A DNA stretch of 64,000 nt from Bacteroidota bacterium (lineage in GTDB: Bacteria; Bacteroidota; Ignavibacteria; Palsa-1295), in contig JAFDZW010000001.1 in the NCBI GenBank assembly GCA_018266755.1, positions 273,635 to 337,634 on the forward strand, written 5' to 3'. Every line of letters begins with the position of its first letter. Position 1 is the first letter of the stretch. A model generated the notes under the pieces. The model saw only the letters and a program-made list of their open reading frames with translations. It did no database searches and was not told the origin of the DNA. Shown in pieces: positions 11,100-61,893 of this stretch. A program made the translations under genes and the position numbers.

Positions 11100-11172
11100 T
11101 GGTCAGGGAGGGAATCGAACCCCCGACACAAGGATTTTCAGTCCTTTGCTCTACCGACTGAGCTACCTGACC
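11100..11172 (-). tRNA. tRNA-Phe (GAA)
   Basis: The minus strand folds as a full cloverleaf. The acceptor stem is GGTCAGG/CCTGACC with discriminator A, the D-arm contains GCTCAGTCGGTAGAGC, the anticodon loop is CTGAAAA (anticodon GAA), and the T-arm contains GGTTCGATTCC. The 3' CCA is not encoded. 73 nt. Confidence 0.95.
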
Positions 11173-38026: not shown

Positions 38027-38337
38027 GTCGTTCTGAGTATAGCGAAGAATCCCTTTCGGTATGTACGGGAGCTCCGTGCAGACCTGAAGGGATTCTTCGC
38101 GTTGCTCAGAATGACGCAGTGATAAAAGATTCTTCGCGTTGCTCAGAATGATACTGTGATAAGGGGTTCTTCGCGTTGCTCAGAATGACGCCGTGATAAG
38201 GGATTCTTCGCGTTGCTCAGAATGATACTGTGATAAGGGGTTCTTCGCGTTGCTCAGAATGACGCAGTGATAAGGGATTCTTCGCGTTGCTCAGAATGAC
38301 GCAGTGATAAGGGATTCTTCGCGTTGCTCAGGATGAC
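38027..38337. repeat. Family B repeat expanded into a 37-bp x 7 minisatellite
   Basis: A family B element whose right arm (GATTCTTCGCGTTGCTCAGA...) is tandemly copied seven times with a 37-bp period. Units start at 38091, 38128, 38165, 38202, 38239, 38276 and 38313, the last one partial. Two unit variants (GACGCAGTGATAAGGGA and GATACTGTGATAAGGGG) partly alternate. There are no unique spacers, so this is not a CRISPR array. Confidence 0.9.
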
Positions 38338-38340
38338 GTG

Positions 38341-47489: not shown

Positions 47490-47496
47490 TACGATT

Positions 47497-47611
47497 GTCA
47501 TTCCGACCGAAGGGAGGAATCTGTGACTACGCGACACCCAGAGCAATGCGAGTGTTTACAGAGTAACGCCATCCCAGATTTCTCACATTCATGTGCGCCA
47601 TTCGGAATGAC
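47497..47611. repeat. Dispersed palindromic repeat, family C, copy 2
   Basis: Left arm GTCATTCCGACCGAAGGGAG and right arm CCATTCGGAATGAC around an ACTACGCGACACCCAG core. It is immediately followed by another family C arm at 47621. Confidence 0.8.
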
Positions 47612-47620
47612 AACCACACT

Positions 47621-48012
47621 GTCATTCCGATCGAAGGGAGGAATCTGGGTAGGTAGTATCTCATGAGGAACGATCGATGCCTGCAAATACTGAATACTTC
47701 GTGTACATTATGGCAAGCCTAAGCAAGCGAACGTATGTAGGTGTCACAGCCGACTTGTTTCGCAGGGTATACGAGCACAAGTTCGGCGAGGAGGAGAGTT
47801 TTACCCATCGTTATCATATAAACAAACTGGTATATTACGAGACATTCAACGATATTCGGGATGCGATCTCGCGCGAGACGCAGATTAAGGACTATCGCAG
47901 AGAGAAGAAGGTGGTGTTGATAGAGGGGATGAACCGGCAGTGGGCCGATCTTGCACATGGGTGGTACCCGAAGGGTTCTGCCTTTACAGATTCCTCCCTT
48001 CGGTCGGAATGA
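47621..48012. repeat. Family C repeat arms enclosing a GIY-YIG gene
   Basis: Left arm GTCATTCCGATCGAAGGGAG (47621-47648) and inverted right arm CTCCCTTCGGTCGGAATGAC (about 47986-48012). The GIY-YIG gene fills the interval and its stop codon is in the right arm. A further half-arm (CTTCTCTCGGAATGACAC) ends at 48123, just before fmt. Confidence 0.75.
47677..48012 (+). CDS. GIY-YIG nuclease-domain protein (small, UPF0213-like)
   Basis: 111 residues. YFVYIMASLSKRTYVGVTAD holds the two strands of the GIY-YIG fold (YIM...YVG), RRVYEHKFG the arginine helix, and RDAISRETQIKDYRREKK the conserved Glu helix. The group includes small stand-alone nucleases of unknown target. The C-terminal residues DSSLRSE and the stop codon come from the family C repeat arm. 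The gene sits entirely between inverted arms of that repeat, so it may be cargo of the element. Confidence 0.85.
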   Translation: MPANTEYFVYIMASLSKRTYVGVTADLFRRVYEHKFGEEESFTHRYHINKLVYYETFNDIRDAISRETQIKDYRREKKVVLIEGMNRQWADLAHGWYPKGSAFTDSSLRSE

Positions 48013-48125
48013 CAATATACTCTAATGAGCAATGAAAATGAAGACCGTGAATCGTGTATTGTACCCTTTGTTGTGCATGAACGATGCATCCTACCCAGAT
48101 CCCACGCTTCTCTCGGAATGACACA

Positions 48126-49082
48126 ATGGTAACAACCGTACCAATCCCCAATCCCCGCGTCGTCTTCTTCGGCACCCCGGAGTTCTCGGCGTTTATCCTC
48201 GAGCATCTCGTGAAGAACGGGGTGAACGTTGTGGCCGTCGTCACGACACCGGAGAAGGAGCAGGGAAGAGGCCTCAAGACACGGCCATCCGTCTTGCAGG
48301 ACAAAGCGATCGAACTTGGCCTGCCCGTGCTGGCACCGACGCTTACGCGCGACCCCGAGTTTATCGATGCGCTGCGCGAGTTCGATGCGGATATCTTTTG
48401 CGTCGTCGCCTACAAGATTTTACCGAAGGACGTATTCACCATGCCGCGGCTTGGCACATTCAACGTGCATACGTCGCTGCTGCCGAAGTATCGCGGTGCC
48501 GCCCCGATGCAGTGGGCACTGATTAACGGCGAGACGGAAACGGGTATCACCACGTTCCTGCTCGATTCGAAGATTGACACCGGAGGCATCCTGCTGCAAG
48601 AGCGCGTCGGCATCACCGAGAACGAAACCCTCGGCGAGTTACACGACGAGTTGATGCACCTCGGCGCGAAGCTCGCTCTCGAGACGATTACCGGTCTCGT
48701 CGCAGGCACCCTCGCGCCTCGACCGCAAGACGATTCGCTCGCTACGCCAGCGCCGAAGATCTTGCCCGAGCACTGCATCATCAAGTTCGATCGTCCCGCC
48801 GAAGCGGTACACAACCAGATTCGAGGACTCTCGCCATTTCCGGGTGCAGTGATGACAATACTTGACGGCGAACGACTGAAAATATTTCTCACCACTGTCG
48901 CTCGCGGAATGAAACCACTTCCTGTCGGCGTGCTTCATGCCGATGCATCGCATAAACATCTCTTCGTCGGCACGGCCACCGATCCGCTCGAAGTGCTCGA
49001 AGTGCAGCGCGAAGGTAAGCGGCGAATGAGTGCCGAAGAATTCTTGCGCGGAATGCGAATTCCACTACCAGTCGTAATTTGA
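48126..49082 (+). CDS. fmt: Methionyl-tRNA formyltransferase
   Basis: Formylates initiator Met-tRNA with 10-formyl-THF. VVFFGTPEFSAFILEHL opens the Rossmann fold, and FNVHTSLLPKYRGAAPMQWA carries the catalytic Asn and His. DSKIDTGGILLQ carries the catalytic Asp. The C-terminal domain ends RRMSAEEFLRGMRI. 318 residues. ATG 48126 is used; the frame continues upstream only through a family C repeat arm. The GDPD gene follows with 2 nt spacing. Confidence 0.95.
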   Translation: MVTTVPIPNPRVVFFGTPEFSAFILEHLVKNGVNVVAVVTTPEKEQGRGLKTRPSVLQDKAIELGLPVLAPTLTRDPEFIDALREFDADIFCVVAYKILPKDVFTMPRLGTFNVHTSLLPKYRGAAPMQWALINGETETGITTFLLDSKIDTGGILLQERVGITENETLGELHDELMHLGAKLALETITGLVAGTLAPRPQDDSLATPAPKILPEHCIIKFDRPAEAVHNQIRGLSPFPGAVMTILDGERLKIFLTTVARGMKPLPVGVLHADASHKHLFVGTATDPLEVLEVQREGKRRMSAEEFLRGMRIPLPVVI

Positions 49083-49780: not shown

Positions 49781-49818
49781 TAGGGCGCTGATCGTGATGT
49801 ATGATCAAGCGATGTATT

Positions 49819-49934
49819 GTCATTCCGACCGAAGGGAGGAATCTGGGACATCGTTTCGATCGAAGCATAGCGAACGGTTATAGATCGGAACCAGTCCAGA
49901 TTCCTCACATCGCTTCGCTCCGTTCGGAATGACA
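49819..49934. repeat. Dispersed palindromic repeat, family C, copy 4
   Basis: Left arm GTCATTCCGACCGAAGGGAG and right arm TTCCTCACATCGCTTCGCTC with CGTTCGGAATGACAC. It occupies the gap between the GDPD and YyaL genes. Confidence 0.8.
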
Positions 49935-54912: not shown

Positions 54913-54990
54913 CTTGCATTATTGAACGGAGTTTTCCCTCGACGGGCGGCCACCAAGCCGCCCGTTGTGTTTGCATCGCTTTCAAACGAC

Positions 54991-55074
54991 GTCATTCTGA
55001 GCGAAGCGAAGAATCCCTATGGCGGAGCCTCACAGGGTTTCATCGAGGGATTCTTCGCCTCGCTCAGAATGACA
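54991..55074. repeat. Dispersed palindromic repeat, family B, well-preserved copy
   Basis: GTCATTCTGAGCGAAGCGAA and TTCTTCGCCTCGCTCAGAAT form near-perfect arms around the GGAGCCTCACAGGGTTTCAT core. It lies between the ankyrin gene and gatB. Confidence 0.85.
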
Positions 55075-55164: not shown

Positions 55165-56631
55165 ATGGATACCGAACTCCTGCAGAAATACGAACCCGTG
55201 ATCGGGCTTGAGGTGCATGCGCAGATGCTGACGAAGTCAAAGGCATTCTGTACGTGCTCGACCGAATTTGGAGCGCCGCCGAACTCACGCACGTGCCCCG
55301 TCTGCCTTGGGCATCCCGGGACATTACCCGTGCTCAACGAAAACCTCGTGCGGTTTATCGTGCGTATGGGGATAGCGACGCATTGCCATATCCGCGAGCA
55401 TTCGATCTTCGCACGCAAGAATTACTTCTACCCCGATCTGCCGAAGGGCTACCAGATCTCGCAGTATGAGACGCCCATCTGTCATGGCGGCTGGATCGAA
55501 GCGGAGCTGCCGGATGGCGCACTCAAGCGTATCGGCATCACCCGAATTCACATGGAGGAGGATTCCGGCAAGTCGATCCACGATTTCGGCAGCGAGACGC
55601 TCGTCGATCTCAATCGCGCGGGCGTGCCGTTGATCGAGATCGTCAGCGAACCGGACATGCGCTCGAGCGACGAAGCGTACGCATATCTCACTGCGATCAA
55701 GGCGATCGTCACGTACCTCGGTATCTGCGACGGGAATATGGAAGAGGGCTCGCTTCGCTGCGATGCGAACGTCTCTGTACGGCTCAAAGGGAGCCCGCAG
55801 TTCGGGCAGAAGACCGAGGTGAAGAATCTGAACTCCTTCCGCAACGTGCAGCGCGCGATCCAATCCGAGATCGAACGGCAGATTGGCTTGCTTGAGGCCG
55901 GGCAGCCTGTCATACACGAGACGATGATGTTCGATGCGAACAAAGGCGTCACACGGGCGATGCGTACGAAGGAAGAAGCGCACGACTACCGCTACTTCCC
56001 GGAGCCGGATCTGCTTCCGGTCACGATCACGAGCGAGTACATCGAAGAGACCCGCACACAAATCCCCGAACTGCAGCGCGAACGCCGAGACCGATTTGTG
56101 CACGAGTATTCGTTGCCGAAATACGACGCCGATGTGCTCACCGTCGATAAAGCGATCGCAGATTTTTTTGAGAATGCCGTGCTTGCGCTCGAGAGTCGCA
56201 ATGCCGAGGACATCAAGGCGATCTCGAACTATACGATGGGCGATGTGATGCGTATGCTCACCGAGCAGAAAAAGAGCATTGCAACGCTCGGCCTGGATCC
56301 GAGGCACTTAGCCGAGCTGATAACGCTGGTGTCGAAGTCCACGATCTCGAATAAAATTGCCAAAGATCTCCTGCCCGAGCTATTGGGGTCGGCGAAGTCG
56401 CCGAAGCAGATCGTCGAGGAGCGAGGGATGGTACAGGTTTCCGACGAAGGCGCACTGCGCGAGGCCATCAAAACCGTGCTCGCAAACAACGGCGATAATC
56501 TTTCGAAGTACAAAGCCGGCAAGGTCGCATTACTTGGCTTCTTCGTCGGTCAGACGATGAAGGCCATGGGCGGCAAAGCAAATCCGACACTGTTGAACGA
56601 ATTAGTGAAGCAAGAGATTGAGAAGTGCTGA
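55165..56631 (+). CDS. gatB: Aspartyl/glutamyl-tRNA amidotransferase subunit B
   Basis: tRNA-binding and kinase subunit of GatCAB, which converts Glu-tRNA(Gln) and Asp-tRNA(Asn) to their amidated forms. 488 residues: YEPVIGLEVHAQMLTKSKAF, the zinc-type CTCSTEFGAPPNSRTCPVC, FYPDLPKGYQISQYE and the C-terminal YqeY-like tail. The last codon and stop (TGC TGA) fall in the first heptamer unit of the repeat that follows, so the native C-terminus has probably been replaced. Confidence 0.96.
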   Translation: MDTELLQKYEPVIGLEVHAQMLTKSKAFCTCSTEFGAPPNSRTCPVCLGHPGTLPVLNENLVRFIVRMGIATHCHIREHSIFARKNYFYPDLPKGYQISQYETPICHGGWIEAELPDGALKRIGITRIHMEEDSGKSIHDFGSETLVDLNRAGVPLIEIVSEPDMRSSDEAYAYLTAIKAIVTYLGICDGNMEEGSLRCDANVSVRLKGSPQFGQKTEVKNLNSFRNVQRAIQSEIERQIGLLEAGQPVIHETMMFDANKGVTRAMRTKEEAHDYRYFPEPDLLPVTITSEYIEETRTQIPELQRERRDRFVHEYSLPKYDADVLTVDKAIADFFENAVLALESRNAEDIKAISNYTMGDVMRMLTEQKKSIATLGLDPRHLAELITLVSKSTISNKIAKDLLPELLGSAKSPKQIVEERGMVQVSDEGALREAIKTVLANNGDNLSKYKAGKVALLGFFVGQTMKAMGGKANPTLLNELVKQEIEKC

Positions 56632-57164
56632 GTGCTGAGTGCTTAGTGCTTAGTGCTTAGTGCTTAGTGCTTAGTATACAGTTCAACCTACATGTAAGGA
56701 GGTCAGCAATGGCAAAGATAGAACGATTTGAGGATCTGATTGCGTGGCAGAAAGCCCGAGTGTTAACGCGCGAAGTGTATCAAGTAACGCGGACCGGCCG
56801 ATTCTCGAAGGACTTTGGGCTTGCAGGACAAATTCAGCGCGCATCTGTTTCTGTAATGTCCAACATTGCCGAAGGATTTGAGCGAGGACGACGAGCTGAG
56901 TTGCATCAGTTTCTATCTATAGCCAAAGGATCGTGCGGCGAGGTCAGAAGTCAATTATATGTAGCGTTGGATGCAGAATATCTTTCTGAGGAGCGGTTTG
57001 CGGAGTTGAAGTCGCTCTGTGAAGAGACCGGAAGGATCATTAACGGATTGCGTTCGAGCATTCAACGCAACCCAAAATCAGGATTTTAGAACTACAACAA
57101 TAACACTCGGCACTCAGCACTTAGCACTTAGCACTCAGCACTTAGCACTTAGCACTCAGCACTT
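56625..57164. repeat. Cassette: heptamer-repeat inverted arms around a four-helix-bundle gene
   Basis: The left arm (56625-56676) repeats GTGCTTA/GTGCTGA heptamers about seven times. The right arm (57104-57164) repeats the inverted forms GCACTTA/GCACTCA about eight times. One complete gene (56709-57089) lies between. The arms could pair into a long stem with the gene in the loop. The empty element at 5048-5127 has the same 7-bp periodicity and inverted layout with a different heptamer. Confidence 0.8.
56709..57089 (+). CDS. Four-helix-bundle protein (23S rRNA intervening-sequence protein family)
   Basis: 126 residues, all helical. FEDLIAWQKARVLTREVYQV, FGLAGQIQRASVSVMSNIAE and GFERGRRAELHQFLSIAKGS are the standard motifs of the IVS/S23 four-helix-bundle family (PF05635), distantly related to DGR Avd proteins. 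A strong Shine-Dalgarno AAGGAGG (56696-56702) sits 6 nt before ATG 56709, unlike most genes here. The family function is unknown. The gene is wholly enclosed by inverted heptamer repeats, which suggests a mobile cassette. Confidence 0.88.
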   Translation: MAKIERFEDLIAWQKARVLTREVYQVTRTGRFSKDFGLAGQIQRASVSVMSNIAEGFERGRRAELHQFLSIAKGSCGEVRSQLYVALDAEYLSEERFAELKSLCEETGRIINGLRSSIQRNPKSGF

Positions 57165-61796: not shown

Positions 61797-61809
61797 CTGT
61801 TTTCCAATT

Positions 61810-61893
61810 GTCATTCTGAGCAACGCGAAGAATCCCTTGATGAAACGCTGTGAGGCTCCGCCACAGGGATTCTTCGCTTCGCTCAGAATGACA
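61810..61893. repeat. Dispersed palindromic repeat, family B, flanked by a 17-bp duplication
   Basis: GTCATTCTGAGCAACGCGAA and TTCTTCGCTTCGCTCAGAAT arms around TGATGAAACGCTGTGAGGCT. The 17-bp sequence GCCGCTGCGGGGAATTC occurs at 61761-61777 (end of the epimerase gene) and again at 61928-61944. Confidence 0.85.

Follow-up and report, generated by a model that had tools for sequence, protein, structure and literature searches.

A small GIY-YIG nuclease gene between inverted hairpin-like repeats that resemble CGTC-tagged REPs in a Bacteroidota genome

Ssn proteins of Neisseria (Nature Communications 2025) reportedly belong to the GIY-YIG superfamily and cut single-stranded DNA at specific sites; they are said to modulate DNA uptake and recombination. 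The general kind of nuclease considered here has reportedly been described already under that name. The repeats around it have their closest described counterparts among the CGTC-tagged REPs, which, according to a 2013 survey, carry a CGTC or TGTC tag, a stem of 8-9 bp that starts with AT and a loop of 4-5 nt, and occur mostly as inverted dimers (PMC3733652). This superfamily includes the dRS3 repeat of Neisseria, and the same survey found no dedicated transposase for it (PMC3733652); dRS3 itself is given as ATTCCC N8 GGGAAT (PMC3898611). A literature search returned no paper joining GIY-YIG and dRS3, and none with CGTC or REP among the matches listed; the Ssn paper lay outside the reach of that search.

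The window (the whole stretch of DNA that was analysed, 64,000 nucleotides long) contains a locus at which a small GIY-YIG gene lies among short dispersed repeats. The features referred to below are the following, with the strand given where one applies.

47490 to 48126: intergenic interval from the stop of a PGI-like gene to the start of fmt, occupied almost throughout by repeat arms and the nuclease gene
47496 to 47613: REPIN-like pair to the left of the nuclease gene, with a full plus-strand arm at 47496-47523 and a degenerate minus-strand arm ending at 47613
47620 to 47647, plus strand: left arm of the nuclease cassette, a hairpin of the GA/GA type with the sequence TGTCATTCCGATCGAAGGGAGGAATCTG
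47677 to 48012, plus strand: ORF of the GIY-YIG nuclease, 111 aa, with an ATG start (PF01541; AlphaFold mean pLDDT 86.8)
47695 to 47904, plus strand: GIY-YIG catalytic domain, aa 7-76, from the profile match and invariant residues
47887 to 47910, plus strand: motif KDYRREKK, aa 71-78, of the K77 class, a predictor of GA/GA hairpins
47988 to 48015, minus strand: right hairpin arm, source of the stop codon and of the C-terminal residues DSSLRSE
48096 to 48123, minus strand: degenerate half copy of the repeat immediately ahead of fmt
49818 to 49934: solo REPIN-like pair of the nuclease-arm repeat family, gene-less
54990 to 55074: solo REPIN-like pair of a second family (GAGCGAAGCGA tip), the family flanking the genome's other nuclease
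61809 to 61893: solo REPIN-like pair of the second family

An earlier note on this DNA had placed the nuclease gene within opposed arms of a dispersed repeat, and this arrangement is confirmed: the repeat copies at 47620-47647 (plus) and 47988-48015 (minus) face each other around the ORF, and the stretches 47620-47656 and 47978-48014 are 86% complementary. It had also derived the last residues and stop codon from the right arm, and the final codons of the ORF, GAT TCC TCC CTT CGG TCG GAA TGA (DSSLRSE*), are indeed right-arm sequence over seven codons and the stop. A neighbouring plus-strand copy at 47494-47524 is 100% complementary to the right arm (47986-48016) over 31 nt. With the pair at 47496-47613 on the left and the half copy at 48096-48123 on the right, nearly all of 47490-48126 therefore consists of repeat and gene. 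Within the 64-kb window, 4 matches to a 24-mer of the repeat stand against 0 expected, and 17 matches to a degenerate form against 0.02. The whole genome holds 153 copies of one repeat pattern and 244 of a second that partly overlaps the first, the reversed control being 0 for each. Two sub-families are prominent, TTCCGA-CCGAAGG-GAGGAA and TTCTGA-GCGAAGC-GAAGAA, and the one further nuclease homologue of this genome at E<=1e-3, which is 56% identical to the window's, is placed between arms of the second.

Elsewhere in the window, positions 38087-38338 hold about 6.8 head-to-tail copies of a 37-bp unit beside an inverted pair at 38027-38115; each unit carries one second-family arm in the same orientation, an arrangement that differs from the usual inverted dimers. 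Heptamer tandem repeats (AGTGCTT, CACTCAG) are found at 56624-56675 and 57104-57164, and a tRNA gene at 11100-11172 on the minus strand is the sole Rfam match of the window.

The arms of the window consist of 5 bp, a GA/GA step, 2 bp and a 3-nt loop. In a sample of 93 distinct arms, picked by tag and GA positions with pairing not required, four positions are paired in 86, 86, 87 and 84 arms, where shuffled means are 40, 61, 42.5 and 36; each of these positions shows two to four pair types and exceeds every shuffle. Little evidence comes from the inner C-G pair, which is almost invariant and forms in 89 of 93 arms, where shuffles give 82.5, and the two outer bases of the loop are never paired in the 93 arms. 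Predicted DNA folding energies of four arms are no better than those of shuffled sequence. The evidence for a hairpin is covariation only; by covariation, the repeat behaves as a hairpin.

The examined loci contain 149 distinct inverted pairs with a median of 91 bp, which is the inverted-dimer arrangement of the CGTC-tagged REPs. GTCAT is preceded by T in 122 of these 149 pairs and by C in 18, which corresponds to a TGTC or CGTC tag followed by a stem that starts with AT. The arms of the window do not have the stem of 8-9 bp and loop of 4-5 nt that characterize CGTC-tagged REPs, and since their broken stem departs from this rule they are best placed as a relative of these REPs outside families 1-4. 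In these terms the repeats resemble REPs with a CGTC/TGTC tag, the superfamily to which dRS3 belongs.

GIY-YIG is the only profile that passes its cut-off for the ORF product (PF01541, 7e-11), and the product is not an HUH tyrosine transposase of the RAYT/REPtron kind. Y20, G22, R30, H34, E67 and N86 are among the positions invariant in 20 homologues, and R30 and E67 are presumably catalytic, by comparison with GIY-YIG enzymes. The AlphaFold model (mean pLDDT 86.8, about 50 in the C-terminal tail) matches the fold of UPF0213 BH0048 (1zg2) best, followed by Slx1 and, weakly, the UvrC N-domain; 1zg2 is also the best PDB match by sequence, at a weak 3.5e-4. Searches of NCBIfam and PHROGs yielded no specific family for the nuclease, the match to TIGR01453 is weak and below cut-off, and a search of 50,697 phage records gave no match. 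The protein is small, consists of a GIY-YIG domain standing alone and has the catalytic residues conserved, in which it agrees with what is reported of Ssn. Its homologue in N. gonorrhoeae (1e-13, 44.7% identity) has dRS3 arms around it and is, we assume, the protein named Ssn. Membership in the Ssn family of GIY-YIG proteins, reportedly specific for single strands, is most likely for the window gene.

In a first sample of 30 loci, to which the two of the window's genome belong, inverted arms starting TGTCAT stand on either side of many close homologues. A bracketing inverted repeat with a score of at least 14 was found at 40 of 80 named loci from many phyla, against 2 of 400 control intervals, in a sample that is biased because the query that ranked it contained the repeat-derived tail. 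A further sample was drawn with a core-only query from 392 genomes of the phylum, of which 157 had a match at E<=1e-12. From these, 90 loci were examined (30 returned directly as loci and 60 more taken in list order, the window locus among the 90); the genome's own second nuclease, one locus near a contig end and two within stretches already covered were left out. Here a bracketing score of at least 14 was reached at 37 of 90 loci against 10 of 450 controls, nine of these ten controls being due to similar arms nearby. When hairpins were defined without regard to stem letters, outward-tagged hairpins stood on both sides of 40 of the 90 homologues and of 6 of the 450 control intervals, and on at least one side of 63 homologues and 56 controls; by the same definition, 27 of the 90 homologues have no outward-tagged arm. 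Left and right arms have stem letters in common at 17 of the 40 doubly flanked loci, where 6.8 would be expected. Repeat and nuclease co-occur far above chance, in many phyla, and a functional link between them is well supported on comparative grounds. The earlier note had named random placement of homologues relative to such repeats as the contrary outcome; placement is non-random both in these counts (40/90 against 6/450) and in the way that hairpin type tracks nuclease type. Counts of two repeat types come to 22 copies in genome G008 and 104 in G009, both with no nuclease match at E 1e-3, and G031 has 36 repeat copies with weak nuclease matches only.

A few loci and records have features of their own. 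In a genome of the same genus as the window's organism (G001), a nuclease homologue (L053) lies in two frames with internal stops and is apparently decayed; this genome has 26 dRS3-like repeats. On plasmid p1 of Planktothrix agardhii (L259) the nuclease has a type IIL restriction enzyme (MmeI) on one side and drmA, the helicase gene of DISARM, on the other. The plasmid-collection records H10, H11 and H2 (Neisseria gonorrhoeae, Aeromonas caviae), of 2.2 and 4.9 Mb, resemble whole chromosomes.

For a protein tree, 170 of 189 sequences were kept (those with a stop, an X or fewer than 70 aa being dropped), 125 of them with arms and 115 with a label seen at least three times; 11 loci identical to others were removed from both the tree and the motif table. 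Over the 115 arm-bearing nucleases the stem label changes 35 times, against 64-77 times in 300 shuffles, and the alignment columns most informative on the label are 72, 74, 17, 77, 16 and 73. The motif table was based on 190 of 200 candidate proteins, the others being short or containing X. Among these 190 aligned proteins, of which 179 served both for recognising the motif classes and for counting them and 11 plasmid-collection loci were added afterwards as held-out, W or F at position 77 accompanies a perfect stem in 33 of the 33 genes with classifiable arms, G[SNP]R accompanies TGC arms in 18 of 18, and K or R at 77 accompanies GA/GA arms only in 78 of 83 (the exceptions being 2 mixed, 2 perfect and 1 TGC). 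Three proteins, two of them with perfect and one with GA/GA arms, have a gap or another residue at position 77; no arm is present at 47 genes, and 6 have unclassifiable arms only. Nine of the 11 held-out loci have arms, all nine in agreement with their motif class, and two have none; the held-out N. gonorrhoeae homologue, surrounded by dRS3 arms, has the motif KKWNRAWK. Named hosts of the GA/GA class belong to 15 phyla.

Nuclease sub-type and hairpin architecture match in these alignments. For the labels tested (TGC, perfect-stem, TTCGA) there are about 1-2 independent switches each, too few for an independent-pairs test of the motif code to reach significance, and clade inheritance of a linked gene and arm may therefore explain part of the match. 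Of what may be new here beyond Ssn, the motif-to-hairpin code is the most useful. Hairpins of the TGC type (GTCATTGCGAGG...GACGAAGCAATC) also occur at 16 places in the window's genome, for example at G000:C1:20933-20972; both nucleases of this genome are of the K77 class, so that its TGC-type hairpins have no matching nuclease.

Some relatives have sites without the cassette. Of the 11 relatives with a PGI match, 4 have fmt directly after PGI without repeats or nuclease; in the remaining 7, no fmt was found next to PGI, which has other neighbours or lies at a contig end. In Azospirillum lipoferum 4B (L261), sufB and sufC of an iron-sulphur assembly gene cluster are separated by a nuclease gene and the repeat pairs on either side of it, an insertion that is absent from three relatives that are 94.5-95.6% identical. 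No repeat is present at the empty PGI-fmt and sufB-sufC sites, and by these genome comparisons the presence of the cassette is lineage-specific. In Sinorhizobium, C101 has a single two-tagged palindrome at the position of the arm-gene-arm of Ak57, and similar flanks follow. As this palindrome is tagged on both ends, it suggests loss by joining of two arms, with gain as the alternative.

Of 15 pairs of homologous copies that were inspected, 4 (L098/L124, L167/L175, L070/L078 and L210/L216) have an edge of nucleotide homology 0-2 nt from an arm tag. The inner end of the cassette at L002 is found at twelve places in the window's genome, L002 itself counted. Pairs of 90 bp without a gene, L256 and L257 among them, are similar to the gene-bearing L002 at both of its inner ends. 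No target-site duplication beyond shuffles was detected in the 149 inverted pairs. It is plausible that the nuclease spreads the repeats. The predicted role in spreading or maintaining them that was suggested earlier fits the empty sites, the homology that ends at tags and the short versions of the gene-bearing element.

A repeat-derived tail is not generally shared by the homologues. A right arm is present at 51 of the 90 core-query loci, where 45 genes stop before the arm and 6, the window gene included, stop inside it. The tail was considered as a conserved functional feature and rejected, since 6 of 90 genes stop within the arm and the tail is of low confidence in the AlphaFold model. DSSLRSE* does recur in genes from several phyla in the 80-locus set, which was ranked by a tail-containing query. 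In this reading frame the four stem-variable positions of a window-type arm are third positions of codons, so that different arms yield the same peptide, which is regarded as coincidence, and the repeat-made tail is incidental.

The explanation that we favour, and consider moderately probable as a whole, is that the nuclease has the surrounding hairpin repeat as its target and that cuts at opposed arms free or copy the DNA between them. The nuclease would bind the folded single strand of the hairpin, with residues 72-77 contributing to the choice among perfect-stem, GA/GA and TGC hairpins, and would nick it while the DNA is single-stranded during replication, repair or uptake; after cuts at two opposed arms, the stretch between them would be freed or copied. 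A gene-bearing pair would then be an autonomous element and gene-less pairs non-autonomous derivatives, in a manner parallel to that in which RAYT transposases are thought to act for another REP superfamily. In the window's genome the two nucleases occupy two different repeat sub-families. A wider proposal is offered tentatively, as somewhat less than an even prospect: CGTC-type REPs may be the substrate of a GIY-YIG mobile system, an independent parallel to RAYT/REPIN with an autonomous arm-nuclease-arm unit, derivative gene-less pairs and a three-class motif code that chooses the hairpin.

The nuclease could instead be a resident enzyme, for which the repeats are fixed sites for processing single-stranded DNA (for example in uptake or recombination) and which moves neither gene nor repeats. 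The N. gonorrhoeae homologue amid dRS3 repeats and the absence of target-site duplication would suit such an enzyme, whereas empty sites and lineage-specific presence at PGI-fmt and sufB-sufC, together with homology of copies that stops at arm tags, would not; we hold it to be rather unlikely, yet worth keeping in view. Chance landing of the gene in repeat-rich intergenic DNA, with something else spreading the repeats, has on its side that the repeats are clustered and that genomes with repeats but no nuclease match exist. It is quite improbable, given that control intervals of the same loci are seldom bracketed (6/450 against 40/90) and that arm type tracks nuclease type across phyla.

Only a slender chance is allowed to a classical homing endonuclease, which would make a double-strand cut in an empty repeat into which the gene is then copied. 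Both arms are whole hairpins that do not appear to form an interrupted site, no DNA-binding domain lies outside the core of about 90 aa, and the C101 palindrome, which at the position of the arm-gene-arm of Ak57 could be read together with the GIY-YIG fold as a sign of homing, is tag-like at both ends and better explained by deletion between inverted arms than as an untouched target. The earlier likening to a minimal homing system is not supported in its strict sense: the gene appears to be bracketed by two whole sites, not to interrupt one, and no target-site duplication was found. An ordinary UPF0213-like protein unrelated to the repeats would account for UPF0213 BH0048 (1zg2) being the best PDB match by both sequence and fold, but the sequence match is weak (3.5e-4) and the repeat association and motif code speak against it; already disfavoured by the association counts, it is scarcely credible.

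A GIY-YIG mobile system of the kind proposed would supply the dedicated enzyme for CGTC-tagged REPs that is missing from the 2013 survey (PMC3733652). REP-like hairpins are high-copy repeats of many bacterial genomes, and that survey names no dedicated enzyme for the CGTC superfamily (PMC3733652). A matched nuclease in many phyla, with a motif that predicts the hairpin, would make the origin and persistence of the repeats directly testable, and the motif would allow sequence-specific single-strand nucleases to be chosen by sequence alone.

Among known systems, the GIY-YIG intron homing endonucleases have the catalytic fold in common with the window protein, along with the weak TIGR01453 match below cut-off; they differ in that the window gene has no intron or intein and no extra DNA-binding domain, and apparently leaves no recognition site split. 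UPF0213 proteins (PDB 1zg2, 1ywl) share the fold and are distant in sequence. With Ssn, the window nuclease shares a small stand-alone GIY-YIG protein, homology to the Neisseria protein among dRS3 repeats, and a gene adjoined by a repeat with many genomic copies. It differs in its host, in a GA/GA-interrupted stem with K77 where the Neisseria homologue has a perfect stem with W77, in the presence of two paralogues in two repeat sub-families of one genome, and in a C-terminus that overlaps an arm. RAYT/REPIN systems likewise have REP arms flanking a gene, and inverted pairs without a gene at other places of the genome, but with an HUH tyrosine transposase and a GTAG tag in place of GIY-YIG and a TGTC/CGTC tag (PMC3733652). 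The CGTC-tagged REPs share with the window repeats the CGTC/TGTC tag, the AT start of the stem, a short loop, inverted dimers and many copies (PMC3733652, PMC3898611). In the window repeats a GA/GA step interrupts the stem and a loop of 3 nt closes it, and whereas the survey found no dedicated transposase for CGTC-tagged REPs (PMC3733652), the repeats of the window bracket a GIY-YIG gene.
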